A program made the translations under genes and the position numbers. From Notolepis coatsorum (lineage: Eukaryota > Chordata > Actinopteri > Aulopiformes > Paralepididae), in the NCBI GenBank assembly GCA_963971535.1, contig OZ020587.1:155948153-156012152 (forward strand): DNA of 64,000 nt, written 5' to 3'. Shown piece after piece: positions 26,748 to 64,000 of the stretch (position 1 is its first letter; each line of letters begins with the position of its first letter). The notes below the pieces were generated by a model. It ran no database searches and was not told the DNA's origin. It was given only the letters and a program-made list of their open reading frames with translations.

Positions 26748-28085
26748 ATGACAGCTATGTGTGAGTCATGCAACCTTACCATTTCAAAGCTGAAAGAGAA
26801 CATCTCTCAGCTAAAATCTGAGCTTAGTGAGAAAAACAAGCTTGTCATGGAGTTCTCAACAGTCGCCTCAACACAGGCGAAACAAATCGCTGTCCTGTCA
26901 ACCAGCTCCATGGGTACTCTTCTTTTGGATAGCAATAGTCTCTCCAGCCCAGACGGAGCTCCGGAGGCTCCGGGGCAGTCAGAGGAACCCTGGTCACTCC
27001 AGGGAGCTAGGCCCAAGCTTCGTGCCACCTCCACTCCTCGGCGTAAGCATGTGGAGGGTTGGTCCAATGTTGTTGCTGGCAAGGGTAAAAATGCCGGTAG
27101 GTTACACATTCGAGAGCCCGAGAGGATCCAGCTTATGAACAGATACGACGTCCTGAATATGCAGGATCCCCCCCCCCCCACACTGGCTTCCCGGTTTGTG
27201 GATCGCCGCTCTGGGACAGCAACGGGGTCCCCCCAATCTGTCCCCCCAATCTATCCACAGGCTGGTCAAACCAGTCTAAAGCCATCGCCTGCACAGGGAG
27301 CTAATAGGAAGCGTTCCTGTCCCTCGTCCCCGTTAACCCAATGTAAACGCCTCCGACGGAAAACCCCTCCGCCCCCTGTTGACCTACTGTCCGAGTGCGT
27401 CCCTTCAAATAGCCGGCTGCAGCTTTCGCCTGCACTGAACAACCGAGTATTAGATACAGCTAAGGCAAATGGTGACATCACCAAGGAAATCCCTGTTCCC
27501 GCTGCGAGCAACGTCAATGCAGCTCTCAGCGACAGAGCTGTTCCTGTTCCTACTTCTTCCCCTATTGTCTCGGACACTCTTATTATAGGTGACTCAATCG
27601 TCCGCTATGTCTCTGTGAAAGGTTGCGAGACAAGGTGCTACTCTGGTGCTAAAGTGGCAGACATTAACGCTATGATACCTAGTCTGTTGTCTGAGGTGTG
27701 TCAAAATTCCCTGGTGGTTCACATTGGAGCCAATGATATCAAAGCTGATGCATCAGAGCTGATAAAAGAGGAGTTCAATAGATTAATGGACACTCTCAGT
27801 CTCTGGGAGACTGGTAAGACCATAGCCATCTCAGGGCCCCTACCCTGCCTATATCGTGGGGATATGAAATACAGTCGCCTTCACCAATTACATCTGTGGC
27901 TGAAGGAAAGCTGCTGGTTCTGGAACATTGCCTACATAGATAACTTCACTCTTTTTTATGACAGATATGACCTCTTCAATAGGGACGGAGTACATTTAAA
28001 CAGGTCTGGAGCCAAGCTGCTCTCTATGAATATTTCTGATACATTGCAAGCCCTCTTTTCATTTCTCCAAAAGCCTGTAAATTGA
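26748..28085 (+). CDS. L2 LINE ORF1: coiled coil plus SGNH-type esterase
   Basis: 445 residues from ATG at 26,748. Residues 10-50 form a likely coiled coil, preceded by CESC. Residues 90-250 are basic and proline-rich and probably disordered. Residues 275-440 form an SGNH-hydrolase-like esterase. It has the Ser block IIGDS (Ser283), the block HIGAND (Asn329, Asp330) and DGVHLN near the end (Asp413, His416), which are the expected catalytic positions. An esterase in ORF1 is known from CR1/L2-group LINEs, where ORF1 proteins bind RNA and self-assemble. The frame ends at a TGA and the same frame reopens directly after it into ORF2. No defect is visible. Confidence 0.85.
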   Translation: MTAMCESCNLTISKLKENISQLKSELSEKNKLVMEFSTVASTQAKQIAVLSTSSMGTLLLDSNSLSSPDGAPEAPGQSEEPWSLQGARPKLRATSTPRRKHVEGWSNVVAGKGKNAGRLHIREPERIQLMNRYDVLNMQDPPPPTLASRFVDRRSGTATGSPQSVPPIYPQAGQTSLKPSPAQGANRKRSCPSSPLTQCKRLRRKTPPPPVDLLSECVPSNSRLQLSPALNNRVLDTAKANGDITKEIPVPAASNVNAALSDRAVPVPTSSPIVSDTLIIGDSIVRYVSVKGCETRCYSGAKVADINAMIPSLLSEVCQNSLVVHIGANDIKADASELIKEEFNRLMDTLSLWETGKTIAISGPLPCLYRGDMKYSRLHQLHLWLKESCWFWNIAYIDNFTLFYDRYDLFNRDGVHLNRSGAKLLSMNISDTLQALFSFLQKPVN

Positions 28086-28358
28086 TGCTCTGTATGCCCA
28101 AGTTCTACAGTAACTCAATTAACTCACCGCCTTCAACTCTCTCCCCAGCCCAGGCTTGGGCAGCTTAGTAATCAGGAAAATAGTGCCCCGCTAATATCTT
28201 CTTCAATTTTATCATCAAAGTTACCTCTACCATTTCATCCCATTCCTACAATAATTAGCAATAGACATCAAAATAGAGCATCTGGTAAAGCAAATTTGAC
28301 AGACCTCCGACCTTTAAAGTATTACAGTCCAGTAAAGTGCCATGGTCATGGGATAAAG

Positions 28359-31193
28359 ATGGCCCTATTTAACATTAGGTCACTTCTCTACAAGTCCTCA
28401 TCGGTTAGTGACATCATTTGCGATGAGAAATTAGATATTATCTTTCTAACGGAGACATGGCTTGGCTCTGATGGAGCGGTAACTTTGGCCGCTGCCTGCC
28501 CCGCGGGCTATAGTTTTGTGCACTCAATAAGTGAGGGCAAGAAAGGAGGTGGACTGGCAAATATTTTCTCAGACACTTTAAAATGTAAACTTCTGATTCT
28601 TGGCAAATATTCATCATTTGAATACCAGGCCACCATACTTGAGAGTAAATCCCCTGTGCTAATAATTACCATTTATCGTCCTCCAAAGCTCAGTAAAACC
28701 TTATTTTTAACAGAAATAGCTGAACTTCTATCTATCTGTTCCACTAACTACGACAGAACCCTGATAACAGGCGACGGAAACCTTCATGTGGAGAATGTAT
28801 CAGATACTGAAGCTGTGGGCTTCCTACAGTTGTTGTACTCTTTTGATTTTATTCAGCATGTTGTCGGCCCAACACATAAACACGGCCACACCCTGGACTT
28901 GGTGATCTCTAGAGGTATGAGAATCACTGTCGACAAAATTATTGAAAGGCCGGAGCTATCTGACCACCATCTGCTATGTTTTAGTATGACTGTCCCTGAT
29001 CTTGAGAAAAACAGTACAGACTATACTATTAAAAAACGTTTCTTTAGCCCGTCAGCAGCCAGTGAGTTCCCTAGTCATCTGGTAGGTGCGCCCGCCCTAC
29101 CTGAATCTTCCTCAGTAAATGATATGGTTCAACATTTTAGTCTTAAAGTAAGGTCAGCTCTTGACAAAGTGGCTCCCTTGAAAACCAAGAGGAGACATAA
29201 AGCCAGAATAACACCCTGGATCACCGAACATATGCGTTCACTTAAGAGGGAATGTCGTAGAGTGGAGCGAGTTTGGAGAAAAACCAAGCTCACTGTCCAC
29301 CTACAGTCTTTAAAGCAATCTACAGTTGCCTACAACAAAGCCATGCGTCTGGCAAGACAGACGTATTTCTCAGGCATTATTAATGAGAATAAGACAAATG
29401 CCAGAGTTTTATTTTCCACCATTGAACGTCTTTTAAATCCCCCCCAGTCCTACAAGCAGTCGCTCGCTGCCACTAAAGATAAGTGTAATGAGTTTGCATC
29501 CTTTTTTGATAATAAAATTCTTAACATTCGTGCTAGTATTGTGAGTGATGCTCTTAGCACAAACTCTCAAACTACAAATGCCGCTAGTAGTGCTATATGC
29601 AACAGGATAAATCGCTCCAGGGGAAGTCTAGCATCGTTCTGTGAAATTGATGAAAAGGAACTCCGCAAAACCATATCGCAAATGTCATCATCCTCCTGTT
29701 CTTTGGATGCCATTCCCACCCCCTTCCTCAAAGAGGTTTTAGACAGTGTGGTTGGAGATATCCTTAAAATTGTAAACAGCTCTCTCAAATCAGGCATCTT
29801 TCCAGACTCACTAAAAATTGCTGTAGTTAGGCCCTTACTAAAGAAACACAACCTTGATCCCTCTGTGTTGAGTAACTATAGACCTATCTCTAATCTCCCT
29901 TTTTTGGGCAAGGTCTTAGAAAAGACAATTTTTTATCAACTGGATGCGTTTTTACAGAAAAATAGGGTCCATAACAAATTCCAATCTGGTTTCCGGAGGG
30001 GCCATAGCACTGAGACAGCACTTGTAAAGGTAATTAACGACCTTAGGGTGTCTGCGGACAATAAAGAGGTATCCGTTCTCCTACTCCTAGATTTAACGGC
30101 TTTGTTTGACACAATTGACCACACAATTCGAATGCACCGCCTCGAGTATTGGATAGGTCTGTCAGGCATGGCCTTGTCCTGGTTTCATTCCTACTTAACA
30201 GGTAGAAGCTACTCTGTCAATCTAGCGAATTATGATTCCGACAAACACACCATCTGTTCTGGTATCCCGCAGGGATCCATTCTTGGCCCTTTATTGTTCT
30301 CCCTGTATATACTGCCGCTGGGTGGACTTATTACCAATCATAGAGTTAACTTCCATTTATATGCTGATGATACCCAGCTTTACCTCTCCGTAGCTCCAGA
30401 CGAGCCCTGTGCTCTAGACCCGTTGTTGACCTGTTTGTCCAGCATAAAAGGCTGGATGAGTGAGAATTTTCTCAAGCTAAATGAGGATAAGACAGAAGTT
30501 CTCATAGTGGGGTCTAGTGAGCAGAGAGAACTGATAAAAAGTAGACTGGGTAACCTGAACGTAGAAAATAACACTGCAGTAAAGAACCTGGGGGTTATTA
30601 TTGATTCTGAATTGAATTTTAATACACACATTAATCATGTCACGAAGATTGCCTTCTTTCATCTTAGAAATATTGCACAAATTAGAGCCTATGTGTCCCT
30701 GGATGATGCAAAAACGCTAATCCACGCTTTTGTTTTCTCTCGGCTTGATTATTGTAATGCACTTTATTCTGGCCTTCCAAAGAAAACAACTGACAGATTA
30801 CAACTTGTCCAAAATTCGGCAGCCAGAATTTTAACTAGAACTAAGATGAGGGAACATATTACTCCAGTTTTAGCTTCACTGCATTGGCTCCCGGTTGTCT
30901 TTAGGATTGATTTTAAAATTCTCCTGCTTGTTTTTAAAGCTCTTAATGGTCTGGCACCATCTTATCTCTGCGACTGCTTACATAGATATGTTCCAAACCC
31001 CCCCCTCAGGTCCTCTAGTGCGGACCTGCTCGAAGTGCCTACAATGAAATATAAAAAATATGGCGAAGCAGCCTTTTGTTTCTATGGGCCGACGGCGTGG
31101 AATAATCTCCCACTACATATAAAACAGGCAGCCTCTGTGGATAGCTTTAAAGCACAGCTCAAGACATATTTTTATACTCTTGCTTTTAGCTGA
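28359..31193 (+). CDS. L2 LINE ORF2: APE endonuclease and reverse transcriptase
   Basis: The first ATG in frame that fits the family start (MALFNIRSLL) is at 28,359. The frame is open from the ORF1 stop at 28,083. The endonuclease covers roughly the first 215 residues: FLTETW, a GDGNLH block at about 28,770 where the family normally has GDFN, and SDHHLL near the end. RT motifs follow: RPISNLPFLGKVLEK, FRRGHSTETAL, DLTALFDTIDH, GIPQGSILGPLLF, YADDTQLY (30,360) and FLKLNEDKTEVL. The L2-type C-terminal region is SRLDYCNALYSGL, LHWLPVVFRIDFKILL and AWNNLPLHIK. About 945 residues, normal for L2. The Phe-to-Gly change in the endonuclease and AA-to-AL in the RT A motif (ALFD) may weaken activity. 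No stop or frameshift. Confidence 0.9.
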   Translation: MALFNIRSLLYKSSSVSDIICDEKLDIIFLTETWLGSDGAVTLAAACPAGYSFVHSISEGKKGGGLANIFSDTLKCKLLILGKYSSFEYQATILESKSPVLIITIYRPPKLSKTLFLTEIAELLSICSTNYDRTLITGDGNLHVENVSDTEAVGFLQLLYSFDFIQHVVGPTHKHGHTLDLVISRGMRITVDKIIERPELSDHHLLCFSMTVPDLEKNSTDYTIKKRFFSPSAASEFPSHLVGAPALPESSSVNDMVQHFSLKVRSALDKVAPLKTKRRHKARITPWITEHMRSLKRECRRVERVWRKTKLTVHLQSLKQSTVAYNKAMRLARQTYFSGIINENKTNARVLFSTIERLLNPPQSYKQSLAATKDKCNEFASFFDNKILNIRASIVSDALSTNSQTTNAASSAICNRINRSRGSLASFCEIDEKELRKTISQMSSSSCSLDAIPTPFLKEVLDSVVGDILKIVNSSLKSGIFPDSLKIAVVRPLLKKHNLDPSVLSNYRPISNLPFLGKVLEKTIFYQLDAFLQKNRVHNKFQSGFRRGHSTETALVKVINDLRVSADNKEVSVLLLLDLTALFDTIDHTIRMHRLEYWIGLSGMALSWFHSYLTGRSYSVNLANYDSDKHTICSGIPQGSILGPLLFSLYILPLGGLITNHRVNFHLYADDTQLYLSVAPDEPCALDPLLTCLSSIKGWMSENFLKLNEDKTEVLIVGSSEQRELIKSRLGNLNVENNTAVKNLGVIIDSELNFNTHINHVTKIAFFHLRNIAQIRAYVSLDDAKTLIHAFVFSRLDYCNALYSGLPKKTTDRLQLVQNSAARILTRTKMREHITPVLASLHWLPVVFRIDFKILLLVFKALNGLAPSYLCDCLHRYVPNPPLRSSSADLLEVPTMKYKKYGEAAFCFYGPTAWNNLPLHIKQAASVDSFKAQLKTYFYTLAFS

Positions 31194-34593: not shown

Positions 34594-35563
34594 TGTGGTA
34601 AATTCCCACAGACTTTCTACAATAATTTGAGGTTATTGTAGTACAATACAATGAGATTGATTATCTGGAAGGAGGAGGAAGGATCATACCCGATAGAATT
34701 GTTGGTCTCCTCATCTGACTTAGCAGATGAGGAATAAAACGTGTACGCCAGACAAACCAGAACTGTAGTTCAACTCAGCTGATTTATTTGAGCCAGGGCC
34801 AAGAGTGAATAAAAGGTTGCCTTTCACATACAAAAGATTATCAGAAAACATTAACAGGGCTGTCTGTTGTACAGAAATATCACAATCAGGTTTGCATCTC
34901 AAACCTCAATAATGTACATAAAACAGTCACTTGGTTAACATAATCTGAACATACATTAACCATACTGCACACATTATACATGAGTAAATCTGGTTTCTAA
35001 GATAAGTATCTATACATTCTATTCTAACCAACCATGGGTCCATGATTTTACTCACATAAAATGCAGCAGCACAGTCTCTCTGGTGGAAGGAGCGGTGGAG
35101 CCCCCAGACCCCCTGGGGTTGGTCCGGTCTGAGAGCTCCCGAATTACCAAAATGTCCCCTCCTTTATACTACAATTTCTAGCCAAAATAGAATACAGTTC
35201 ACTATTACAGTTGATCCAATCAGGCGTCTCCTGTGGGGGGTCTCCTGTGGGCGCTGGCAGCCCCCCCCCCCCTGGGGTGTGGCGACGTGATGGGACAGAG
35301 ACAGAAGGGGCCCATCGGTGGCCCACGTCCGTGTGATCTTTTGCTGAGATGAAGGGGCCTGTCTTGTCTCACGAGGGGGGGTGTGACATGATGTCCTCGG
35401 GTGGGGGGTGTGAATACGCTTTGACCCTTTGGGCCTTATTACCATACAGTACTAATCTGGCCACATAGTGGGTGTGACCTTTGTCTATTCAACTATCCCT
35501 GCCACCTACTTCTGCTAAACAGTATACAAGGCTGTTTATGAAATTCAACTCAATATTACCACA
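34594..35563 (-). repeat. LTR, left (3' LTR of a minus-strand element)
   Basis: 970 bp starting TGTGGTAAATT and ending AATATTACCACA, so it has TG...CA ends and short inverted termini. It appears identical to 41,426-42,395 wherever I compared, including a run of 12 C. The frames in it are the same in both LTRs and are not genes. Confidence 0.95.
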
Positions 35564-41425: not shown

Positions 41426-42395
41426 TGTGGTAAATTCCCACAGACTTTCTACAATAATTTGAGGTTATTGTAGTACAATACAATGAGATTGATTATCTGG
41501 AAGGAGGAGGAAGGATCATACCCGATAGAATTGTTGGTCTCCTCATCTGACTTAGCAGATGAGGAATAAAACGTGTACGCCAGACAAACCAGAACTGTAG
41601 TTCAACTCAGCTGATTTATTTGAGCCAGGGCCAAGAGTGAATAAAAGGTTGCCTTTCACATACAAAAGATTATCAGAAAACATTAACAGGGCTGTCTGTT
41701 GTACAGAAATATCACAATCAGGTTTGCATCTCAAACCTCAATAATGTACATAAAACAGTCACTTGGTTAACATAATCTGAACATACATTAACCATACTGC
41801 ACACATTATACATGAGTAAATCTGGTTTCTAAGATAAGTATCTATACATTCTATTCTAACCAACCATGGGTCCATGATTTTACTCACATAAAATGCAGCA
41901 GCACAGTCTCTCTGGTGGAAGGAGCGGTGGAGCCCCCAGACCCCCTGGGGTTGGTCCGGTCTGAGAGCTCCCGAATTACCAAAATGTCCCCTCCTTTATA
42001 CTACAATTTCTAGCCAAAATAGAATACAGTTCACTATTACAGTTGATCCAATCAGGCGTCTCCTGTGGGGGGTCTCCTGTGGGCGCTGGCAGCCCCCCCC
42101 CCCCTGGGGTGTGGCGACGTGATGGGACAGAGACAGAAGGGGCCCATCGGTGGCCCACGTCCGTGTGATCTTTTGCTGAGATGAAGGGGCCTGTCTTGTC
42201 TCACGAGGGGGGGTGTGACATGATGTCCTCGGGTGGGGGGTGTGAATACGCTTTGACCCTTTGGGCCTTATTACCATACAGTACTAATCTGGCCACATAG
42301 TGGGTGTGACCTTTGTCTATTCAACTATCCCTGCCACCTACTTCTGCTAAACAGTATACAAGGCTGTTTATGAAATTCAACTCAATATTACCACA
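41426..42395 (-). repeat. LTR, right (5' LTR of a minus-strand element)
   Basis: Same length and, by eye, same sequence as 34,594-35,563. Confidence 0.95.
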
Positions 42396-51441: not shown

Positions 51442-53002
51442 CATGTGTCGTAAATTGATTGAATCAAAATGCACGGTCCAGTACTACAGAATGAATTTAA
51501 GATCAGTTTCTCCAAGGAAGTAAGCCACAGCTATTAGCAGTATACCATCGCTCGTAAAAATAGGTTCTACAAGTTAGGACAGGGGTCAGCCCGTAGAGAA
51601 TAGACCATTTGGTGGTTAGCTGACAATCTCCCCTCACCCAACCAAGTTGATTGACTTAAGGTCATAAACTGACCCCTCAAGGCTATATTGAGGTAAGCAG
51701 GAAGGAGTTGTTTATTTTAGTGTAAGAGACCAACCGGCCACTGTGAGAAAAGCCTCTCCCCCCCTGTCAAGACCTTCTGCCGGGAAGAGATAGTGACTGA
51801 TTATCTTTGAAGAACAGAAACCAACAGGATTTAGAGCCAGGAACACATCCCTTAGCATCATAAAACTCTTATTTGGAGGCTGAAAATACAGTTGAGGTCA
51901 GAGTGCTGTTGACCTAGCCTGACCAATACTTGGCCCTTCAGGAAGTGCTGGAGGTAAGCAGCTGGGCAGAGAGAGATTAGGCTTCATACTATAAAAAGCT
52001 AAACAATAAAGTATTATAGATATCGATTAAAGGTTAGACTAAAAGCAAGTGGACGTTAGTAACAAACAGTTTAGTACCAAAAATGACACACATTGGTCAC
52101 TAGAAAAGCTAAATGCAGTTCTATACATTATAGACTAAATACTAGAGTATTTGAATAAAAGTAAACTGTTAAACAAAATCATATTAGAAAATTGGCTAAG
52201 TAAACAGAAGTAGTAAGACCAGGGATAAAACAAGTTAGAACTACCAAGTTAAAAGACATTTAAAAGTACCAGTATAAGAAACTAGGTTAATCATTCATAA
52301 TTGTGTTAAATAACTATAAAAAGGCTCTAGCATTCGGGAAAAAGCATTTAACTAACTTAGTTATACTAAACAGTAAATAATCTATGCATGTAAACCCACG
52401 TAAAACAAAGTAACCGATAGAAATATTGAATGGATCAAAATTACAATAGACAAACTGCTGAGTAAGACCCTGCTTTAAGGGGAACGGACCTAACCTCTCA
52501 ACACTACCTTAAATGGACCGGGTTCTCAGAAAAAGGATGACGTGTCACGCAGCAGAAAAAGCTTCTAGCCAATAGAAGAAGCCAGATCCCTGGGGTGACG
52601 TCACTGGACGTCCCGGGGGGCCGGGGGAAACTGTTTCCTTTAAAGACTGCAGGCGCTGATGGGGGAGACTGGAGCGCTCAGACAGAACAGACACACAGCG
52701 AGACGAGACGGACAGCTTGAGAAGGAGAACCTGGAGACATCACCACCAGTTCGAGAAAAAGAGACGCGAACCTGAAGACTGATAGAATAAATGCTGTGAA
52801 CCTGATGATTAAGCTGTTGTTTTCAATAAAACAACAGACAGTCTGTTTTCATCCGGCGCTCTTGTCTCAGTCTCCAACTTTTATTTCGACCAATCAGATG
52901 AATGGACTTTTTCAAAACGTGTGATGCAGCCAGAGTAAGCTATCCACTATACACTTGAGAAACGATTTTATAGCTACATAGAATATTGAAATACACGTTA
53001 AG
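51442..53002 (+). repeat. 5' LTR region of a class I provirus (left boundary unknown)
   Basis: The second LTR is outside the window, so the left edge cannot be fixed; it lies to the right of 51,441. Promoter-like elements are a CCAAT box (about 52,568), TGACGTCA, a CREB/ATF-type site (about 52,597), and TTTAAAG as a weak TATA (52,637). Polyadenylation signals AATAAA follow at about 52,787 and 52,825. The primer-binding site starts at 53,003. No typical terminal CA is seen right at the boundary. Confidence 0.6.
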
Positions 53003-53020
53003 TGGTGCCGTGACTACCCG
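53003..53020 (+). other. Primer-binding site, tRNA-His type
   Basis: TGGTGCCGTGACTACCCG. The first twelve bases equal the complement of the tRNA-His 3' end as used by some class I retroviruses, for example the HERV-H group and walleye dermal sarcoma virus; later bases deviate. Confidence 0.75.
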
Positions 53021-53135
53021 GGCTGATCATCCGAACCGACCCAGAACGAGGACACTTCTACTTGACTTCGAAACTCTCAAGCAGAGCAACGACGGTTCTA
53101 CATCATCCTCAGCCGAGCAAACAACAGCGAATACG

Positions 53136-53141
53136 GTGAGT
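53136..53141 (+). promoter_or_regulatory. Candidate 5' splice donor
   Basis: GTGAGT, 116 bases downstream of the primer-binding site, the usual place for a retroviral major donor. Confidence 0.5.
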
Positions 53142-53153
53142 TAAACTGAGAGA

Positions 53154-53300
53154 ATGGGTCTAGTGGTTGGAAGTCGGGCAGTTACCGAACGGGGTTGGGA
53201 TGATGTTGGACATACTGACGATATTGATACGACAGACATCAGGTTCCAATTCTCACAGATTGGCCTGGTCTCGATCGGGCAATACTGTCAGATGCAATGA
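53154..53300 (+). CDS. Small leader ORF, 48 codons
   Basis: ATGGGT start (AGAATGGG), 48 codons, then TGA. It begins Met-Gly, compatible with but not proof of myristoylation. It lies just behind the candidate donor, so only unspliced RNA would carry it. It may be a regulatory upstream ORF or chance. Confidence 0.25.
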   Translation: MGLVVGSRAVTERGWDDVGHTDDIDTTDIRFQFSQIGLVSIGQYCQMQ

Positions 53301-54929
53301 GAATTATTAGGAGGGGCGCACGATCGGGTTGACCGGTACAGAGTTGCAAAAGGAGTGTCGAATTTATAAGCGACTAGAAACGCTATAAATAGGGTTATTG
53401 TTCAAGGGACAATTGAGAGTCTGGTAGTAGTCAAAATTATGACTGCCAGTAGGTAAGGTTTAAACTGGTTTGTATTTAGTTCAGGTCGCGCGCGGCCGGG
53501 GGATAGGGAGTCGTGCCAGGTTACTTAGCAGAATTCTTTCTTAGACTCGTGGCGCAAGTACAGTAACATGGAAGAGACGTCTCCCATGTGTGCTGCCAAG
53601 GCAAACCGACATCATACAAATTTGGGTTCACCTTATGTTGAATCTAAGAAATATCAAGCTTGTGGAGGAAGGATAACGTAGGAGATGGTTGATTTGTGGT
53701 TAAACTGAGAGCACAGGTTTGGCCGCAAAACGCCATCCAAGCCGCCAGGGGGCTCGTGCGAATGTACTCTCTGCGAGCTACTTAACATGTATGGAGAAAG
53801 ACTCTGGAGTATAGTAAGGCGAATCTCAAACCTTGGTATATAAGGCACTTGTTGGAAAAATTGAATGAAGGAACTGCGCTTATGTTTGGATTAAAGAATG
53901 CACTTAGAGGCGGTTAGGATATGTATTTAAAGTACTGTTTAGTAGCGAGGCTAATGGCTGAAGCTAGGAAAATGGCTAACAGCTAACAGCGGAGCTAACA
54001 GTTGGCTGTAGGGTTCAAGATAGCTTCTTGACGTCCGGAACAACATGACCTTTGAACCGGAAGTCGTTCTAAGCTGGCTAGAAAAAATGGCTGACGCTTA
54101 CGGCGGGTGAAGGTTGAAGGGTCAAACTAGCAATTGGAAGTCTGGTGTCGGCCTATGTAAAAATGTATATATATATTGGTTAAAAATGTAGGATGGCACA
54201 TACATTGAATCAAAGTTATAATCAAGGGGTTACGTCGTCATAACGCTGACGTCGCGGGTTGCTATAATGCTGCGGTGAACGGAATAAATTGCCGTTTCAG
54301 CCCGTGAAGCTAATGCTAGGCTAGGCTGGCTAATACATGCTAAGCTGAGCTGCAAGCTAACGGGCAATGCTGGGGGCTAAAATGGCTACTGCGACTGTTG
54401 TTTTGAATGGCGGAGCTTGTAGCATCCCTGGTGGCTAACGGCTACCGAACGATGCTGCATGCTACACAAGGCTAACCAGTGCTAATGATGATAATGTTGC
54501 TGGATGAAAGTATGAAAGTGACTGTGGTGATGTGAGATAATGTGTGTAAATGGAATGGATTAATGGTTAGGAATGAGTGGTGAAAGTGGATAATTTTTGT
54601 AAACAAAATGTGAGTCCTGTAACGAAGCCTCGCGTGAAGCTATTTTGGTGGCTGACAACGACACCTCGTGGTTGTAAAACATGACGTAACTCCCGTGGCG
54701 ACGTCTCACGTGACTGCGAGACATTATAGAGGCTTCTGGGAGTTGCGGTTTTTATTGAGTGAGCACGTCGGTTTTGACGTTGTGTGGTGATTGCTGCGTG
54801 ATGACGCACTTGTTGTGGGAGGGTGAGGGCGCCTCCTGCAGGACGTTGTGAGTACTGTAGTACAATAGGGGTGATGTACGAACATTGCAGCAGGGGGCGG
54901 TGTTGGCTCTTAGATTTTTACAACTCTCC
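53301..54929 (+). other. Proviral leader, non-coding part
   Basis: No long frame. Contains many GCTAAC/GCTAGC words (53,940-54,480). Could include a nested insertion, but I see no clear ends. Confidence 0.4.
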
Positions 54930-56230
54930 TTACCCATTTTTCCCCTCGCTTTCTTTCTCTCCTGCGTCCTCTCTTTCCCATTCCTCCCTTTTTCCCTCGA
55001 TCTCCCTCTCTTGCTCTTCCTCTCTCTGGCCTTCCCTCTTTCTTTTTCTCTCTCGCCCCCCCCCCCCCTGTGGTTAAATATAGTAGATAATACGCTGACG
55101 TAGTGATACGGGATGCCCCCCCCCCCTCGCTCTCTCTCTCTCTCTCCCTCCCTCACCCCCCTCCCTCCCTCCCGCTCCCTCCCTCACCCCCCCCTTTCCC
55201 TCTCTCCCCCCCCCCCTCCCTACCTCCCTCCTTCCCTTCTCCCTCCCTCCCTTCCCTCTCTCTCCCTCACACCATCCTTCCCACTCCCTCCCACACCCCC
55301 TCTCTCCCTCACACCCTCCTTCCCCTCTCTCCCCCCCCTCCCTACCTTCCTCCCTCACCCCCCTCTCCCTCTCACCCTCCCTCCCTCCCTCCCTTTCTCT
55401 CTCTCTCTCTCCCCCCTCCCTACCTCCCTCCTTCCCTTCTTCCTCCCTCCCTCCCTCCCTCTTTTTTTTCTCTCTCTCCCTCGCTCCTGCTTCCCCATAT
55501 GGTTAGAAGTGGTACAGAATACGGAGCGGACAAATTAAAGAAAAAGATTTAGTGATACTGGAATCATTCGGAACCCCCCCGCCCCAAGCTTTTTTCCCTT
55601 CCTCCCTCCCGCTAGTGAGATACCATAGTGTTGTGCACCCCCCCCCCCTCCCCACTATAGTACATCCGCCTCCTTTCCTCCCTCCCTCTTGTTGAGTACC
55701 TTAGTGGGATTTACCTTCCCTCCACATCCCTCTCATAGTGTACCATGCCTCCTTCCTTGAATGCCCCCCCCCCCCCCCCCCCCCCCCACTTTTTCCTTAA
55801 AAGTGCTCTCTCTCGCTCCCTTCCTGCCCCCCCCCCCCTCCCCTCATCCGTTCCTCCGTCCCTCCCCTCCCTCTAGGTCCCTTCCTGGTCCCCCCCTCCC
55901 CTCGTCCGTTCCTCATCCGTCCAACCCCTCCCTTTGGATCCCTTCCTAGTCCCCCCCTTGTTCATTCCTAGTCTCTCCCTCCCTAGGCATTCCTCCTTTC
56001 CCGTCCTTCATTCCTAGTCTCTCCCTCCCTGGGCGTTCCATCCTGATCTAGCCTAGCCTACTCTAGCCTTCCCTGGTCTTTCCTGGCTCCTCTCCCCTAG
56101 ATACTCGTATGTACTCCCTCCCTTCCAGGCTCCTCCCGGGCACTCCCTCCCTCGCTAGCACTCCTTGCGTGTACGTGCCCCTCCCCGGCCCGGCGACACC
56201 CTCCCGTCCCCTCTCTTCCGCTCTCCTCTT
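54930..56230 (+). repeat. 1.3-kb pyrimidine-rich tract in the leader
   Basis: Almost entirely C and T with CCCTCC and CTCT words and several C homopolymers. The proline/serine/leucine ORFs on plus and Gly/Arg/Glu ORFs on minus are compositional. Confidence 0.85.
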
Positions 56231-56339
56231 AGGTGTTGTTGGGGGTTTGGTTAAGGGTGGGATGGGGCGTTGTTGTGTATTGTTGTTGTGTATTATCTGT
56301 GGGGCATGTTGTTAAAAGACATGTTGTTATTTGTGGGGA

Positions 56340-56345
56340 TTACAG
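56340..56345 (+). promoter_or_regulatory. Candidate 3' splice acceptor before the env-type ORF
   Basis: ATTACAG|GA preceded by a T-rich, partly G-interrupted stretch, 58 bases before the ATG of the env-type ORF. Confidence 0.35.
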
Positions 56346-56403
56346 GAAGTATTAGGACACGCGCAGGTGAAGGAGGAACGCGGAGGAGGACAGAACACTC
56401 ACC

Positions 56404-57753
56404 ATGGTTCCTGGTTTGAGTGAAAGTAGTAGGCGTGTGCTTTGGACATGCGCTATAACAATGGTTTGGTTGTTTATGTTGGCTAGCGTGGTACTGTATG
56501 TTCCACCCCGGCAGCCTGAGCTGCCAGAGGTAGTGGTAGTGGGTAAACGGTCACTGCCGGTCCATCACGGTAATTTGTTTCTGAGGATGGCGAGGGCAGT
56601 GGCGAAGGTGGCGAATAAATCAGATTGCTATGTGTGCGGCTTGGCCCCGCAAGCGGCCGCTGCTGGCCTTCCACTGATAGCACACCCTATAACTGAGTGT
56701 CATGCCTCAGTGTTAAGGGATTTGCCTTTCCCTGCCCTATGTAAAGGGGTGGAATCGGGAAGGATTGGGGAATATCTGGGGTTAGGACTGACAAAGAATG
56801 TGATGAAAATAGGCGTGCTGTTAGATGTTGGCCCCATTCCGGTAGCTTATAGGCTGACAGAGTTTAGGAGGTGTGTAGAGGGTAAGTCAGGTGGTAAGGT
56901 TGTGGGGTACTTGGATGGCTGCGTGGGGGATAAGGGGATTTGGGGCAAGGATTCGGAGGCACCAGCTCCGCCTGGGGCGTTTTGGATCTGTGGCGATTTT
57001 GCGTATGCCTCACTGCCAATAGACTGGAGGGGAAGATGTGCGTTGGGTTACTTAGTACCGGCTATGAGGGTGTCTGATGTTTTGCCGACGCTCCCCAGGA
57101 CGAGGAAGGCACGGGATGCGGATAATTTTTTTAGGGTGGCGTTTCCCTGGTATGGGGCATATGCGAATATGGGGGAAATTGATCATTTGGCTAAAGTATT
57201 TGAGGACATGGCTTCCACATCAGCGAGGGGCTTTGCCCTGGAGAATGAGGAGATACGGTCTTTACGGCTGATGGAGATGCAGACAAGGGCAGCTATGGAC
57301 TTCTTGTTGGCGGCATCGGGGGGTACATGTGCGTTGATTGGTCAGGAATGCTGTACTTTCGTACCTGCGAATGATGAGATGGGCATGCCGGCCATAATTG
57401 AGCATTTGAGGAGCATTACGAGGGATCTGCATGACTCTCAGGGGGGATCGTGGGAAGATTGGGGTCAAGGACAGCTGGGGTATATAGGTTGGGTGATAGT
57501 TAAGTACCTACTCTATGCAGTGGTGATATTTGTGATATTAGTCGTGTGTGTGTCAGTGATTAGAGCATGCTTTGGATATCTGATTAGGACTCTCTGCGCA
57601 GCCGGCCCGGCGGTGGGGAAGTCACTCTGCTCGGCTGCACCTGGTATGACGAAGATGATGGCGGTAGAAGTGGATGAGACAGGGTACCGAGCAGAGGTGG
57701 GCGTTCCGTTGGTGCCAAGATACCAGGAGTACGCCCTGGCTACCATTTTATGA
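56404..57753 (+). CDS. env: Retroviral envelope-type glycoprotein upstream of gag
   Basis: 449 codons, intact. The start ATG at 56,404 lies in a strong context (ACCATGG). Basic residues at 10-11 and a hydrophobic stretch (12-32) form a signal peptide or anchor. The SU-like part has CYVC at 75-78, a CxxC motif of gamma-type SU, and FWIC around 193-196. It has only one N-glycosylation sequon (Asn71), low for an SU. A weak furin-type region, PRTRKAR, is at 231-237. The TM-like part has a hydrophobic Phe/Trp-rich start (242-256) and a heptad region (about 262-290). Next come the QTRAAMDFLL block (293-302), where class I envelopes carry the immunosuppressive-like domain, and C309-x6-C316-C317, the covalent SU-TM linkage motif. 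A membrane span is at about 358-386 and a 60-residue tail follows. In known retroviruses env lies 3' of pol; here it precedes gag by about 1.1 kb. I see no LTR or polypurine tract between the two, so it appears to be part of one element. Confidence 0.85.
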   Translation: MVPGLSESSRRVLWTCAITMVWLFMLASVVLYVPPRQPELPEVVVVGKRSLPVHHGNLFLRMARAVAKVANKSDCYVCGLAPQAAAAGLPLIAHPITECHASVLRDLPFPALCKGVESGRIGEYLGLGLTKNVMKIGVLLDVGPIPVAYRLTEFRRCVEGKSGGKVVGYLDGCVGDKGIWGKDSEAPAPPGAFWICGDFAYASLPIDWRGRCALGYLVPAMRVSDVLPTLPRTRKARDADNFFRVAFPWYGAYANMGEIDHLAKVFEDMASTSARGFALENEEIRSLRLMEMQTRAAMDFLLAASGGTCALIGQECCTFVPANDEMGMPAIIEHLRSITRDLHDSQGGSWEDWGQGQLGYIGWVIVKYLLYAVVIFVILVVCVSVIRACFGYLIRTLCAAGPAVGKSLCSAAPGMTKMMAVEVDETGYRAEVGVPLVPRYQEYALATIL

Positions 57754-57867
57754 TCTGGACTGCTGGACAGTTTGGGTCAATGGGTGGTGGATTTGGGGTG
57801 TACGTAGGGGTATGATAATAGGGGACGTGCCTGGGGATATTGTAAAAGTAATGTTTGTTATGTGTAG

Positions 57868-58152
57868 ATGAAATTTGTTTCCATAGTAGGTACACGAGAG
57901 AGAGATGTGATGAGAGTTATTAGGTCCCTGGGGTCTGGTGCTGAGTCTGTACGGTTATGCATGATCGTTCAGCAGGGCACTGGATTTCCTGGGGTTAATA
58001 GACTGGATGACGAGATGGGATGTTTGGGCGTTGACTACCTTGTACCTGTGGTGAGGTGTTCCTGGCCTCTGTGGGGAGTCTGTGATGGACGCTTCAGAAA
58101 ACAGAGGGTGGGGCCTCGCGGCGTGCAGGGAGTAATGTCCGGATGTGCGTAA
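57868..58152 (+). CDS. Unknown 94-codon ORF between env-type ORF and gag
   Basis: ATG at 57,868 (GATGAAATTT). Four cysteines, no membrane segment and no motif that I recognise. Position between env and gag suggests a possible accessory frame, but chance or a decayed remnant is as likely. Confidence 0.3.
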   Translation: MKFVSIVGTRERDVMRVIRSLGSGAESVRLCMIVQQGTGFPGVNRLDDEMGCLGVDYLVPVVRCSWPLWGVCDGRFRKQRVGPRGVQGVMSGCA

Positions 58153-58569
58153 GAACGGTGTTAGTGGACAAATGTCCACTGGGGGGAAGTAGTATTGAAG
58201 TATGGAAACAGAAGAATGAGTGAGATGTGTAAATAGGGTGGAGACACTAATCTAGATGTTTGTGATTTTCGAGGTGAAACAGAATATTGGAGTGGAACCA
58301 CGGGAAACATCAGAAAGCCGAGATTCGACGAAGGAGGAATCAACGAAAAAGCGGAAATAAGGGAGTAGGCACAGAAGACGCAAACACCACTGTCAATCAC
58401 AATATCTCTAAATTTTTGAAAATTGTATGAATTAAGTTAAAGGAGTATTCATACTGTTGGTAAAGAATCTCTCAAAAATTAGATGTGGTATGAATTTTAG
58501 ATAGAAAATATATTCATACTGAAAAGACGGAGTAAAGTGAAATTCCAGTTGAAAATTAAAGAGAACTGT

Positions 58570-58627
58570 TGTGCTCTGTTTTTCAGCAGTTCTGCCAGGC
58601 AACAAGGGCACCACAAGTCAGGTAAGA
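58570..58627 (+). promoter_or_regulatory. Candidate acceptor, 35-nt exon and donor before gag
   Basis: CTCTGTTTTTCAG ends at 58,586 and is a strong acceptor; CAG|GTAAGA gives a strong donor at 58,621/58,622. They bracket a possible mini-exon 58,587-58,621. The gag start lies about 250 bases further down. Confidence 0.5.
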
Positions 58628-58873
58628 CTACAGATCACCAGTGAAGAGGGAAAGAAGAGAATAGACAGGGTGTACAAGTACCGTTAGCGGTTGTTCAAGC
58701 AGGAGATAGTCACAAAAGAATAGACACCTACATTTAGACAGGGAATACAAAAAACACTTTCTTGCCTGCTGCCATTTGAAAAAGAGAACCAGAGAAAAAG
58801 ATTTCTTAGATTAGGAAACAAAAAGAGAAATTAAAAACTCTAGTAAATGAGAAGAAGAAAAGCATTTAAGAAA

Positions 58874-59281
58874 ATGGAAACCGTGGCAAATAAAGATGCG
58901 ACTACCCTAATTGGTTGGATGGAGGATAACCCGGTACAAATTATTGCTAAAAATAATCCTTTCACACAGGACAATCCTTATTATGTGGCAAAAATTACTA
59001 GGTTATCAAAGAAATGGAATAAAAGATGGCCACACATCGCACAACGTTGGCCTATTGAGGGCTCTTTTGATTTGACTGTGATAGCAGATCTGCATAAGCT
59101 AATTAGGACTTATAAGACGGGGGAGGAAAAAGGGAAAAAAGGGACCAGAGCGGCGAAAAGAGGGGAAAAGCGCATGCAAGAGATAACCACTTTAGGACTC
59201 TTCTCTCTGGAAGCTGAGAGAAGGAAGAGTGAGGAAAAGGGCAGTTCGACTGTCAGTGAGGAGGCCCAGCCGACAGAGTAG
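58874..59281 (+). pseudogene. gag: gag, matrix part (first frame)
   Basis: The likely start is the ATG at 58,874 in context AAAATGG. An ATG at 58,847 in the same frame has a weaker context. The matrix-like region has spaced tryptophans and the pattern W-x-x-R-W-P and R-W-P-x-x-G-S-F-D, seen in class I retroviral matrix domains. There is no Met-Gly, so no N-myristoylation. A basic Lys/Arg stretch around residues 90-115 could bind membranes. The frame stops at 59,281 while the next gag segment continues in another frame, so a frame break lies at about 59,240-59,300. Confidence 0.75.
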
Positions 59282-60103
59282 ATCACGACCACTCCCAATC
59301 ACGACCACTCCCCTGGCCCCTGATAGGACAATAGTCACCTCCCAAAGAGCAGCTGAGGTAGCCCCGCTCACCCAAGGACCCCTACCGAGAGCAGAACAGG
59401 TAAGAACTGAGGTAGTTATAGCACCCCCACCATATGCCAGCAGGAATAGGGAACCAATATACCCTATCCTGCCTGTAATAGAAATGAATAGCCAGTATGA
59501 TATGACAAACAACAGTGGCCATAGGACAGAGACGGGACGTGCAGTGACAACAATCACCCTAACTCCGGGAACAGACGAGCCAGAGGAGGTGAGAAGGAGG
59601 GAGCGAGGAACTCAGCCCCACACTTTTCCTCATACCAGAGCGGCAGAGATATATCAAGACGAAGAGATACAACGAAGGAGACATTTACCGCTCACTGCCG
59701 GACAGAAGGAGATCCTCTGGGCGGAAGGAGAGGGACGCCGAAGGGACGAAAGGAGGACTTGGGATGACAAAATAGAAAGTAAATATGGCAGAGACCTCAG
59801 CGACATTGCAGACTTCCACCAGAGGAAGTCAACGAAAGATCCCATCCATCGTCGTCTCTCCCCCCCCCCCTCAGCCAGCAGACACCCGGAAGAACCAGAG
59901 GAAGACTTAGAGATGGGGGAAATACTGGACCGGTACCAGGAAAAGGACAGGGAGCGAGAGAAAGAGGAGGAAAAGAAGCAAGCCTTCCTGGGGACGACAC
60001 CAAGAAGAAGAATATCTGCTCAAACAGTCTCTTCCCCACCAGCCGCCGAAGAAAACAGCGAGATGCTGAGACTGACAGAGGCCCTGGAGGAATTAAAAAC
60101 CGC
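59282..60103 (+). pseudogene. gag: gag, p12-like and linker part (second frame)
   Basis: Proline-rich, with the late-domain motif PPPY at 59,424-59,435, which in retroviruses recruits NEDD4-type ligases for budding. It is followed by a highly charged Arg/Glu-rich region. The overlapping frame stays open to 60,227, but from about 60,095 the coiled-coil continuation is in another frame. The change coincides with an A run, so a small deletion or a sequencing error is plausible. Confidence 0.7.
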
Positions 60104-60334
60104 GAGATGGAAGCACAGATACAGGCCTACAACGAGGCCGAAGACAACGTTTCCGAGGGATACAAAGCAATCACCGCAACCTGGAGAAAGGCCGAAACCA
60201 CACGAAAAGCGTTGGAACATCAAATAGATAAAGTAAGGGATGACCTCAAAGAGTTGAGAAAGACTGAAAATAAAAGAGTGACCAGATCCGCTACCAGAGA
60301 GCAAACGGCCAGCATATACCCAGTAATGACATAA
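60104..60334 (+). pseudogene. gag: gag, coiled-coil part (third frame)
   Basis: About 75 codons of Glu/Lys/Arg/Ala-rich heptad-like sequence, as found before the capsid domain of class I Gag. It ends at a TAA (60,332-60,334) and the capsid frame is open from there, so another break lies at about 60,325-60,336. Confidence 0.6.
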
Positions 60335-60993
60335 GACAACAGGGATTGGAGTATCAGCCATGGAATGCTTCAGACATGACCCAAATATCGGAGAAGTTGC
60401 CCTCCCTCCAGAATGGGGCGTTTCCGTGGATTGCCAAACTGGAGGAAATGATGGTAGGCCAACAGCTGGCTATCGGCGATGTCAAGCGATTGCTCTCTCA
60501 CAAAGTAGGAGTCTCGGTCATGGAAGAACTACTAAGCAAGGCTGGTATGATGAGATACGTAGTTTCAGGAGCACATGACCAGGACCTCTTCGCCGCCCAC
60601 AGGGGAGCACTGTGGCGAGTCCTGCGGGAAACTTATCAAACCCTGATGCACCCAGACAAGATCCACATTGGTGCCTTGGGGCCTGATACCCACCCCAGGG
60701 AGTATGTGGCGAAGGCCTACGCCACCTGGAGAGACATGACTGACCAAGACCCAGAAGCTAATCCAATGGGGGAGGCGATGCTCAGAGAAAAGATACAGAA
60801 GGGCCTCTCCAGTGAAGTGAGACAAAAACTGAATGAGGTGGTGTGCCTGGGGAGTCTTCCCTTAAACCAGTACATGGAAAACATAAGCCATCAAGTGGAG
60901 CTACACAGGAAGAAGGAGCAACAGGCCAAGAAAAAGAAACGGCAAGCCAGTGAAAGCTCTTGTACCAACAGCCTGTCGAGGCAACCAAGGTAG
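60335..60993 (+). pseudogene. gag: gag, capsid part (fourth frame)
   Basis: About 215 codons. The start has PWNASDM and LPSLQNGAFPWI, the pattern found at the N-terminus of class I capsid domains. An all-helical region follows, ending in a long Lys/Gln/Glu helix. This is shorter than the 240-260 residues usual for the capsid. The frame is stopped by TAG at 60,991 and the nucleocapsid lies in another frame, so a break lies at about 60,940-60,990 next to a purine-rich run. Confidence 0.75.
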
Positions 60994-61454
60994 TGGAATA
61001 CCTACAAGCCATGGTACAAGCCACACAGCCCAGAGCCGAGATGGGGAATAGTGGACAACTGAACAACCAGGAACCAGCACAGCCCGGAACACCGGGAGGG
61101 CCGGCACCAGTACAACAACAGAACCAGAGGGGACAGAACTGGCAGCCCCGAGGAGGGAATGGACGTCCAAGAGGAGGACCGTCTGGATGGCCGGCATCGA
61201 CGGAGTGCTGGCCTTGTGGAGAAATCGGCCATCTCGCCCGACACTGTGACAAAGGGTGGCGAACCCAAGGAGCCAGCAACAGGGGTCGAGGAAATAACAG
61301 AGGAGGTGGCCGAGGAGGATACGGCCGACTCCAGGATCAGTGGTACGGACCGAACCAAGGCCAGACCCAAAACCAATGCCAGACCCAAGATCAGAATCAG
61401 CAACAGGACATGGGCCCAGTAGATCCATCCAGGGGGCCGGAGCAGACGTTCTGA
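60957..61454 (+). pseudogene. gag: gag, nucleocapsid part (fifth segment)
   Basis: Gln/Pro/Gly/Arg-rich with a single CCHC zinc knuckle, CWPCGEIGHLARHC (from 61,206), of spacing C-x2-C-x4-H-x4-C, which binds genomic RNA. GR/GG-rich sequence follows. It ends in TGA (61,452-61,454), and a TAG follows in the same frame at 61,494. Protease is in this frame too, so readthrough would have to pass two stops, unlike the single stop of gammaretroviruses. Confidence 0.8.
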
Positions 61455-61496: not shown

Positions 61497-62498
61497 TCAC
61501 ACTTAAGGGAGGAGCCAATAGTGCACGTAACGGTGAATGATAAATCTGTCAGGATGATGGCAGACACCGGCGCAGCGTTCACTGTAGTCCAACTTAAGGA
61601 TGCCACACACCTACCCATGTCCGGTCGATATGTACAGACAATTGGATTTGAGGGAATCAAACAGCTGATCCCAGTGACAGAACCTGTCACCCTGAAATAC
61701 AGAGGCAAAGAAGCGACTGTTTCCATCTTGGTCTCCGACACCGCACCCATCGGCTTATTGGGCAGGGACGGCCTTGGTATGCTGGGGATGAACATTCTAT
61801 GCACGCCTGATGGTTGTGTGATCGACGTCCCAGAGGACCACTACTATCAGATGATGCAAAGGACAGACACCCGACCACCGGAAGTATACTGGTTGGGAAA
61901 CCTAAGCCAGGAATTGCTCGGACCAGCGTTGGAATGGGAGACATTCATCACAGCCAATATGCCAGATGCAAAGAACCCAGAGACACCATACCATTGCACT
62001 CTACAGTACTATAGAGATGTGGATCAGAGACAAGCCAAGGAGTGGCTGAGAAATCAACAAGAGGAGGTACAGCTCAATGCCACCAGTATTATAATGGGAC
62101 CCCAAGGAGCAGCAATACGGCTTGCACGGAGCACCTATCTGCAAAAGGAACACGAGATCACAGGCAGCGTTCCCCACGTGACGCTAAAGGTAACCGACTC
62201 GTGCGACCAACAACACATCGGAGGGATGATGAAAGAGGCAGAAGAAATGGAGTTCGAACAGACGAAGGAGAACCGACTCATATGGATAAGCCCGGACAAG
62301 CGGTTCGTCAAGATAATGATTCAAGGCACAGGGATGGGACGTCCCCAGATGGTGCAGCTGTCACAGGAGACAGTGGAAGAATCCCCCCAGAAATTGAGCC
62401 TCCAGGAGGAGATGATGGGGGCCGTACCAGAAGTGCTGTGGTCGAAACATAGCACCGACATCGATCAAATCTGCTCAACCAGTGAGGGTGGAGCTTAG
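61497..62498 (+). CDS. pro: Protease plus H-x-T-L domain (possible 2H phosphoesterase)
   Basis: Open from 61,497; the first plausible residues are near 61,521, where the codon is GTG, so it is presumably made by readthrough or frameshift. An aspartic protease comes first: active-site ADTGA (about residue 14-18 from 61,521), and GLLGRDGLG at 78-86 as the flap-distal GRD motif. The protease ends near residue 105. The next 150 residues are not a usual retroviral domain. They contain YHCTLQY (His at 61,992) and PHVTLKV (His at 62,175), two H-x-T-L motifs 61 residues apart, the arrangement of 2H phosphoesterases. A segment like the pre-RT linker (PEVLWSKH) follows, and the frame ends at TAG 62,496. 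RT is in the next frame, overlapping by 83 bases. Confidence 0.75.
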   Translation, partial: SHLREEPIVHVTVNDKSVRMMADTGAAFTVVQLKDATHLPMSGRYVQTIGFEGIKQLIPVTEPVTLKYRGKEATVSILVSDTAPIGLLGRDGLGMLGMNILCTPDGCVIDVPEDHYYQMMQRTDTRPPEVYWLGNLSQELLGPALEWETFITANMPDAKNPETPYHCTLQYYRDVDQRQAKEWLRNQQEEVQLNATSIIMGPQGAAIRLARSTYLQKEHEITGSVPHVTLKVTDSCDQQHIGGMMKEAEEMEFEQTKENRLIWISPDKRFVKIMIQGTGMGRPQMVQLSQETVEESPQKLSLQEEMMGAVPEVLWSKHSTDIDQICSTSEGGA

Positions 62499-64000
62499 AC
62501 CAGGAGCAACCCTGCCCTGGAAAAGTCAGTACCCACTGAAGGAAAAAGCGGTGGCTGGAATCGAGCCACAGATCAGAAGACTTCTAAAAGCCGGAGTACT
62601 ACAGAAAACAAAGAACCCCAAGAGCAACACGCCGTTGCTTCCAGTGGAGAAACCTGACACCTCGTACCGGCTGGTACACGACTTGAGGGCGGTCAATGAG
62701 GTTTTAATTGACTATCCCGCCGATGTCCCAGATCCACACACACTGCTGACATTCATCCCGCCGCAAGCTGAGTATTTTACGGTTATAGATTTGTGTAGTG
62801 CTTATTTTAGTGTACCCTTGAGCAAGGAGTGCCAAATTTTTTTTGGTTTTACCTATAAGGATGAGCATTATGAGTACACTAGGATCCCCCAGGGATTAAA
62901 GCATTCTCCACATATATTTAACAAAATCTTAAGAGAAGATCTAGACGGGTTAGACCTGATATTAAAATCCAGAGTCATTCAGTATATGGATGACATTATT
63001 TTGTGTGCCGACGATCAGACAACATGTCATAAGGAATCTGTTAAACTATTGCAGCTATTAGCAGAGAAGGGACACAAGGTGTCTTTGAAAAAATTGCAAT
63101 ACCGTCGACCTATGGTAACATATCTAGGCCAATCAATTTCACAGGGCCATCGAGCTATTTCAGAGGAACATTTGGTGACTATTAAGAAAGCTCCCAAACC
63201 AGTGACTGTACGTCAGATGATGGCTTTTCTGGGGATTGTGGGGTATAGTTCCACATGGGTGGAGAACTACACAGAGCTAGTAGGGCCCTTAAGAGCCATG
63301 ATAAAAGTGTGCGGAAACGACAAGTTGAGTGCTAAATTAACATGGACTGAGGAGGGCCTGCGGGCATTTGAGACCATAAAGACCCGTATGTTAGCTGCCC
63401 CTGCCCTGGCTTTGCCTGATTATACAAAGCAATTCATACTATATGTCTCTTCCTCTTCAGATCAGAGGTATGCATGTGCGGTGCTGGCCCAAAACACCGG
63501 AGTGGGGAGCCATCCACAACCAATAGGATACTACTCCATCGCCTATTCAGAGGTGGAAATGGGAATGCCTCCGTGCTACCGAGATTGCGCCGGGGTCTTC
63601 TTGATGTACGAGAAAGCTGCAAGTATCATGATGGGGTATCCAGTTAATATTATGGTAGCACATGCAGTCAAAAAATTTTTGGAATCTGGTAAATCTGCAC
63701 TAACGATACCCCGTCTTAAAAATTATTACAGGATTTTGGAACAGGAAGATGTTACTTTGACTAGGTGTTCCACGGTGAACCCAGCGCAGACCCTTCCTAA
63801 GCCTGAGGATGGAGACCCTCACGACTGCGTGGCTGAAGCCGAGAGGTACTCCAGACTTAGAGCTGACTTGCAGGCTTTTCCGTTTAGCAGTCCTGATTTG
63901 GAACTATGGACAGACGGCTCATGTTACAGAGTTGGAGAGGACCTAAAAGCAGGTTACTCTGTAGTAAAATCACAAGGTGATGGGTTTGTCGTAGAAAAGG
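62416..64000 (+). CDS. pol: Reverse transcriptase and RNase H, partial
   Basis: Open from 62,416 to the last base of the window with no stop. RT motifs: ELRPGATLPWKSQYPLK, YRLVHDLRAVNE, YFTVIDLCSAYFSVPL, RIPQGLKHSPHIFN and the catalytic YMDD (62,983-62,994), then VTYLGQSIS and MAFLGIVGYSSTW of the connection region. RNase H begins with WTDGS at 63,907-63,921. All catalytic Asp residues visible so far are kept. The layout is that of class I (gamma/epsilon) retroviruses. Relative to protease the frame is shifted by +1. The switch point must lie in 62,416-62,498 and could be a mutation or a real frameshift site. Integrase and everything 3' are outside the window. Confidence 0.9.

Follow-up and report, generated by a model that had tools for sequence, protein, structure and literature searches.

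Class I endogenous retroviruses (ERVs) are arranged as gag-pro-pol-env. Accessory open reading frames (ORFs) upstream of gag are found in walleye dermal sarcoma virus (WDSV), which has a His primer binding site (PBS), and in Xen1, and percomORF is a lone env ORF that sits in a host intron without a provirus. One account describes retroviral gene order as gag-pol-env and largely consistent, and reports a primate ERV protein encoded upstream of gag, a homologue of MC132, that is not an envelope and occurs with gag-pol-env order kept (PMC9927554). A general remark in the introduction of an account of annelid long terminal repeat (LTR) retrotransposons mentions extra ORFs down- or upstream of gag-pol, of which sense ones can be env-like; a bona fide retroviral env before gag is not shown in that part of the account (PMC8220671). 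In the literature that we searched we found no retrovirus with env before gag; a description in the subscription literature is possible.

Here we analyze a 64,000-nucleotide stretch of Notolepis coatsorum DNA (contig OZ020587.1, positions 155,948,153 to 156,012,152; hereafter the window) that contains a provirus with the order env-gag-pro-pol. Like class I ERVs, the family to which this provirus belongs has an LTR pair, a PBS, an integrase tail of murine leukemia virus type, an Env with CxxC and CX6CC motifs and, in two copies, a 4-bp target duplication. Its reverse transcriptase (RT) has its best solved match in 4hkq (p80 RT, which we take to be that of XMRV; E 3e-84), ahead of Pr125Pol (presumably foamy virus; E 8e-40) and HIV-2 (E 2e-19). 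Judged by these domain and structure-library matches, RT and integrase are probably class I and gammaretrovirus-like. Unlike class I ERVs, the family has env before gag and none that we found after pol, together with a 3-4 kb leader that contains a long pyrimidine tract.

A provirus family with env ahead of gag

The window provirus is ~16.4 kb long and consists of a 5' LTR, a His-like PBS, a 3.4 kb leader, env, a 1.09 kb spacer, gag, pro, pol, 476 nt and a 3' LTR, the last of which lies in sequence 3' of the window that we also analyzed (piece L021). The earlier note had placed an intact 449-codon ORF between LTR/PBS and gag. This observation is confirmed: the ORF encodes a gamma-type Env within one provirus, behind an LTR that starts at 51446 and a PBS at 53003 and ahead of gag at 58847. 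The partner LTR lies at L021:2339-3807 and is 98.98% identical over 1469 nt. The aligned repeat stops 90 nt short of the PBS and, if the 5' LTR end given in Table 1 is correct, the 3' LTR lacks its last ~88 nt; no target duplication was found for this provirus, whose LTR ends are unsettled. The PBS is assigned as His-like by comparison with tRNA ends. Elsewhere, PBS-like sites near the LTR end read TGGTGTCG[CT]GACC in the C30 and C8 copies and TGGTGCTGTGGCC in the C6, C24 and C1:272.67 copies.

Reading on past position 64,000 to the 3' LTR, as the earlier note had proposed, revealed RNase H, H2C2, rve and MLVIN_C domains of pol and no env match in the 476 nt between the integrase stop and the 3' LTR, and the ORF ahead of gag is the only envelope gene found in the window provirus. 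Its gag is frameshifted, and its Pfam matches, at E 0.003 to zf-CCHC and at E 0.03 to Gag_MA, fall below the family cut-offs. The window copy is duplicated at C7:66.873-66.888 Mb (pieces L023 and L024; 99.7% identity); the duplicate extends past the LTR start, even DNA outside the LTR being common to both, which points to a segmental duplication or an assembly artefact.

We searched a single genome, of 3.42 Gb, for further copies. The Env search, in which the best 94 of 2476 candidates were scored, gave at least 95 scored matches with 69-100% identity to the window Env; by eye and with frameshifts uncounted, 77 of the 95 listed matches have no stop within the matched stretch and 18 have stops. 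Among nine copies picked by env, including the duplicate of the window copy, eight have gag behind env on the same strand, at a distance of 1.03-1.10 kb in seven and 6.9 kb in one, and five have gag, pro, RT and integrase all in order. With the duplicate excluded, five of the eight other compared copies have their own LTR pair around env and gag (97.6-99.3% identity in four; the fifth pair aligns in two pieces, at 97.9% and 91.5%). Two of these five, among six proviruses with the window copy counted, carry 4-bp target duplications at the LTR edges, CTTC and CTAC; both have settled LTR ends, and env was part of the integrated unit in these two.

The same order was found with RT as the starting point. 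Of 26631 RT candidates 85 were scored, and both copies picked by RT have env ahead of gag, one of these env genes being partly unreadable (N). When two env match lists were compared with the 85 RT positions, an env in the same orientation was listed upstream of 45, at an offset of 4.9-7.2 kb, and none on the opposite strand; for two of the 45, a further env lies 11-12 kb downstream and belongs to the following unit of an array of copies. Behind integrase, 10 other copies gave no env match at E<=1e-3 in any of their 14 downstream pieces, with the 3' LTR reached in five. RT copies at ~94% often lie within open frames of 1451-1470 codons, as in a large, recent expansion.

Using Pfam TLV_coat, we also found that this genome harbours a second family of gamma-type env genes, with 430-codon frames (L059-L062). 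It resembles the window Env (tblastn E 3e-25 to 1e-23) and has CxxC near the N-terminus, but is only 26% identical, and at three of its four loci, which are near-identical copies each seen with a 1.5 kb flank, pieces of integrase precede env in the same orientation, the usual order. Recovery of the usual order here shows that our method detects pol-env order where it is present. Among the options raised in the earlier note, a relocated env fits best, given that no env was found behind pol in the window provirus or in the downstream pieces of the 10 other copies; where the region downstream of pol was examined, the env ahead of gag is thus not a second envelope.

An env ahead of gag might instead be a private insertion, or a domesticated host gene beside a provirus as in the case of percomORF, and the window copy, with its intact env ORF and frameshifted gag, would suit such an origin. 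However, the genome holds at least 95 scored env matches, and gag follows in eight of the nine examined. By the earlier note, copies in which gag directly follows the leader and env is a private insertion would have counted against its reading; env proved not to be private, since it precedes gag in eight of nine env-picked and two of two RT-picked copies and lies upstream of 45 of 85 RT copies. Unlike percomORF, the family env is accompanied by LTRs, gag and pol. An insertion or domesticated gene is refuted for the copies examined, and we give this explanation almost no weight overall.

Equally improbable is that env is the tail of one provirus and gag the start of an adjacent or nested second one. 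Regularly spaced family copies, which this explanation would call for, do exist (C30 127.68-127.73 Mb; C8 52.59-52.62 Mb), but in none of six proviruses does the spacer between env and gag match that provirus's LTR (over the sequence covered) or the PBS motif, and its length of 1.03-1.10 kb recurs in seven of nine other env-picked copies. In addition, LTR pairs lie outside env and gag in all six proviruses, with target duplications in two. The argument previously made against two adjacent proviruses thus held, and adjacency or nesting is refuted for the copies examined. The description of the spacer itself stood in part: no LTR or PBS match turned up, whereas the claimed absence of a polypurine tract needs qualifying, as a purine run of 19-21 nt is present in three of the six proviruses, the window copy included. 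This run is followed by gag, not by an LTR. At C30 127.68-127.73 Mb and C8 52.585-52.62 Mb, family env copies recur every 15-17 kb, as though complete elements were arrayed one after another.

Env features, selection and exchange between lineages

The 449-codon env ORF compares with a longest chance ATG ORF of 220 codons in 300 Markov-1 copies of 53003-58846. CxxC at residues 75-78 and CX6CC at 309-317, the latter in the transmembrane subunit (TM) behind a block resembling an immunosuppressive domain, had both been noted before and are conserved throughout the 16 copies aligned. The window Env matches Pfam TLV_coat slightly below the cut-off (E 1.3e-4; 21.3 bits against 22.5). Fifteen of the 16 aligned copies reach E<=0.1 with this family, the best value being 7.3e-9. 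In a PDB search its closest solved relative was Syncytin-2, the HERV-FRD Env (E 6.9e-13), followed by Syncytin-1 (E 5.6e-9). The Syncytin-2 match covers residues 190-371, but spans only the end of the surface subunit (SU) and TM, and the window Env differs in sitting in an env-first provirus. Hydrophobic spans lie at 11-35 and at 357-399, the second agreeing with the C-terminal membrane span seen earlier. A structure model from one sequence was uninformative (pLDDT 43.8), and no relative turned up in IMG/VR.

Two features that had been listed as departures from typical envelopes hold for the window copy and not for the family in the same way. The furin site between SU and TM is weak in the window copy, with R-X-X-R only, but seven of 16 copies share this state and the other nine have R-X-K/R-R. 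The single glycosylation sequon is peculiar to the window Env, as 15 of 16 copies have a second. Behind the furin site, 15 of 16 copies carry a charged, DADNFFRVAFPWYGAYANMG-like segment and one differs.

Purifying selection acts on env, with a median pairwise dN/dS of 0.263 (range 0.195-0.344; 136 pairs from 19 copies, with the duplicate excluded and five copies with stops kept). By part, in 10 copies without stops that include the window copy and its duplicate, dN/dS falls from 0.30 over the first 60 residues and 0.28 over SU to 0.18 over TM, the lowest value, and reaches 0.35 over the tail. RT dN/dS is 0.07-0.13 in five copies.

Comparison of the window copy with the C6 copy (L007/L027) revealed a mosaic at window 56300-57399, where SU and part of TM are nearly identical and the rest is far more diverged. 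Over this interval there are 1-3 differences per 50 nt, compared with 28-34 just before and 8-22 after; dS between the two copies is 0.97 in RT and 0.26 in env. This pattern indicates that the SU part of env was exchanged between two lineages, both of which have env at the 5' end. Such an exchange fits co-packaged infecting viruses, and recombination during retrotransposition could also produce it.

Two further explanations accept the gene order and differ on what Env does; they overlap with our preferred explanation, and the odds we attach to them are not exclusive. In one, the 5' env encodes an accessory protein (a receptor decoy, a superinfection block or an immune modulator) and another element supplies the entry Env. 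The genome does have other env families, the segment behind the furin site is unusual for a fusion peptide, seven of 16 copies have only R-X-X-R, and the position recalls accessory ORFs upstream of gag such as the primate ERV ORF (PMC9927554). Set against this are gamma-type cysteines in 16 of 16 copies, R-X-K/R-R in nine of 16, a dN/dS that is lowest in TM (median 0.18, 10 copies), SU exchange between lineages and the lack of any other env found in the element. We consider an accessory role unlikely; with its conserved cysteines, its cleavage sites and its exchange between lineages, Env looks more like a functional entry protein than like the decoy or superinfection-blocking protein suggested earlier.

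In the other, retrotransposition is now the element's sole means of spread, with env carried along as a passenger. Many near-identical copies and the stops in 18 of the 95 listed matches (by eye) would be expected of a passenger, but a dN/dS of 0.26 and 77 listed matches without a stop would not, nor would env exchange between lineages, though this is possible between co-packaged element RNAs too. A passenger env seems to us slightly less probable still than an accessory one.

Leader, candidate splice sites and a proposed model of expression

A GGTGAGT motif, the candidate splice donor SD1, is present in six of six leaders, 115-350 nt past the aligned LTR end. A pyrimidine-rich tract of 0.6-1.5 kb lies ahead of env in all eight upstream pieces examined, and within the leader a repeat search gave C/T-rich families only. 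The candidate env acceptor, TTGTGGGG[AG]TT[AG]CAG/GA (slash, splice junction), is found in 12 of 12 aligned copies. Ahead of gag, a second candidate acceptor opens a putative mini-exon that ends at a second candidate donor, SD2, and a further candidate acceptor, SA3, lies behind integrase in four of four copies. Because these splice-like sites are conserved, we infer that Env and Gag-Pol are made from two different spliced RNAs.

In the proposed model, the RNA for Env would arise by joining SD1 to the acceptor that lies 58 nt ahead of env, with a second intron, from SD2 to the acceptor after integrase, perhaps taking gag-pol out of this RNA. For Gag-Pol, SD1 would instead be joined to the gag acceptor, leader and env thereby being lost, and unspliced RNA would be the packaged genome. 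Env itself would be an ordinary class I fusion glycoprotein of SU-TM type, cut by furin. SD2 and the acceptor behind integrase resemble a remnant of the splice pair that would have served env in an ancestor with a 3' env.

Taking the evidence together, we estimate a probability of about 85% that the family is a class I retrovirus lineage, now endogenous, with a gamma-type env in the 5' leader as its only envelope gene, expressed from spliced RNAs as modelled. A tentative extension, to which we give somewhat less than even odds, is that the division of labour is reversed: Gag-Pol would be made from spliced RNA and only unspliced RNA, with leader and env as an intron, would be packaged, genome and Gag messenger being different molecules.

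Several points weigh against this explanation. The evidence is drawn from a single genome. One of nine env-picked copies has no gag, an LTR pair was not found in three of eight copies within the pieces examined, and a target duplication was not found in four of six proviruses, whose true LTR ends are unsettled. The repeat stops before the PBS in the window and C6 copies, and the shared repeat of C24 and C1:272.67 begins inside an LTR of the C30 kind; C24 furthermore lacks pro-RT and C1:272.67 lacks integrase. A stop lies inside env of one of the two RT-picked copies, and for 40 of the 85 RT copies the nearest 15 kb contain no env among the matches listed. The segment behind the furin site does not resemble a textbook fusion peptide. 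Finally, the splicing scheme draws on motifs conserved in related copies, and the C30 and window leaders contain further donor-like motifs.

Table 1. Features of the env-first provirus in the window (positions are those of the window)
Feature	Position	Strand	Remarks
5' LTR	51446..53000	+	End set by PBS and analogy with other copies; aligned repeat stops at 52912
tRNA-His-like PBS	53003..53015	+	TGGTGCCGTGACT, 12-13 bases exact
Candidate splice donor SD1	53136..53141	+	Intron would begin with GT at 53136
Pyrimidine-rich tract in leader	54930..56230	+	C+T 0.76-0.85 in 300-nt steps
Candidate env splice acceptor	56340..56345	+	Exon from 56346, 58 nt ahead of ATG
env, gamma-type envelope glycoprotein, 449 aa	56404..57753	+	Open ORF; motifs, Syncytin and TLV_coat matches, dN/dS
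env-gag spacer	57754..58846	+	Without LTR or PBS match
Candidate splice acceptor before gag	58580..58586	+	Exon from 58587; [CT]CAG/CAGTTC in 4/4 aligned copies
Candidate 35-nt mini-exon ending at donor SD2	58587..58621	+	GT at 58622; CAG/GTAAGA in 4/4 copies
gag, frameshifted in window copy, CCHC knuckle near end	58847..61454	+	ORFs in different frames
Protease, then 2H-phosphoesterase-like domain	61521..62498	+	RVP E 1.5e-5; LigT_PEase weak, E 0.017, below cut-off
Reverse transcriptase and start of RNase H	62482..64000	+	RVT_1 E 7e-26; pol runs on to L021:1862 (integrase)

Fish relatives, other elements in the window and implications

The family shares with WDSV, an epsilonretrovirus, a His-like PBS and an extra ORF ahead of gag. 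It differs from WDSV in Env type and env position; in one account, WDSV Env is without gamma-type hallmarks and many fish ERVs had a gamma-type env (PMC9967133). The 2H-phosphoesterase-like domain behind the protease is a likeness to teleost ERVs for which a 2H/CNPase-like domain is noted, with reference to earlier work, in PMC4977317. H-x-T-L occurs twice in this extension of the protease ORF (61521-62498).

Other elements lie elsewhere in the window. Direct repeats of 970 nt at 34594-35563 and 41426-42395 are 100% identical and 5.9 kb apart; between them there is no ORF of 150 aa, and they perhaps delimit a young non-autonomous LTR element. A LINE-like element at 26748-31193 has a GDSL-like ORF (below the Pfam cut-off) followed by an endonuclease-RT ORF.

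Tens of proviruses with a selected env before gag show that a retroviral lineage can change its gene order and still spread. The env-first order raises the question of how Gag is translated and how the genome is chosen for packaging. Such elements could be overlooked, or labelled env-less, where ERV annotation looks for env behind pol.

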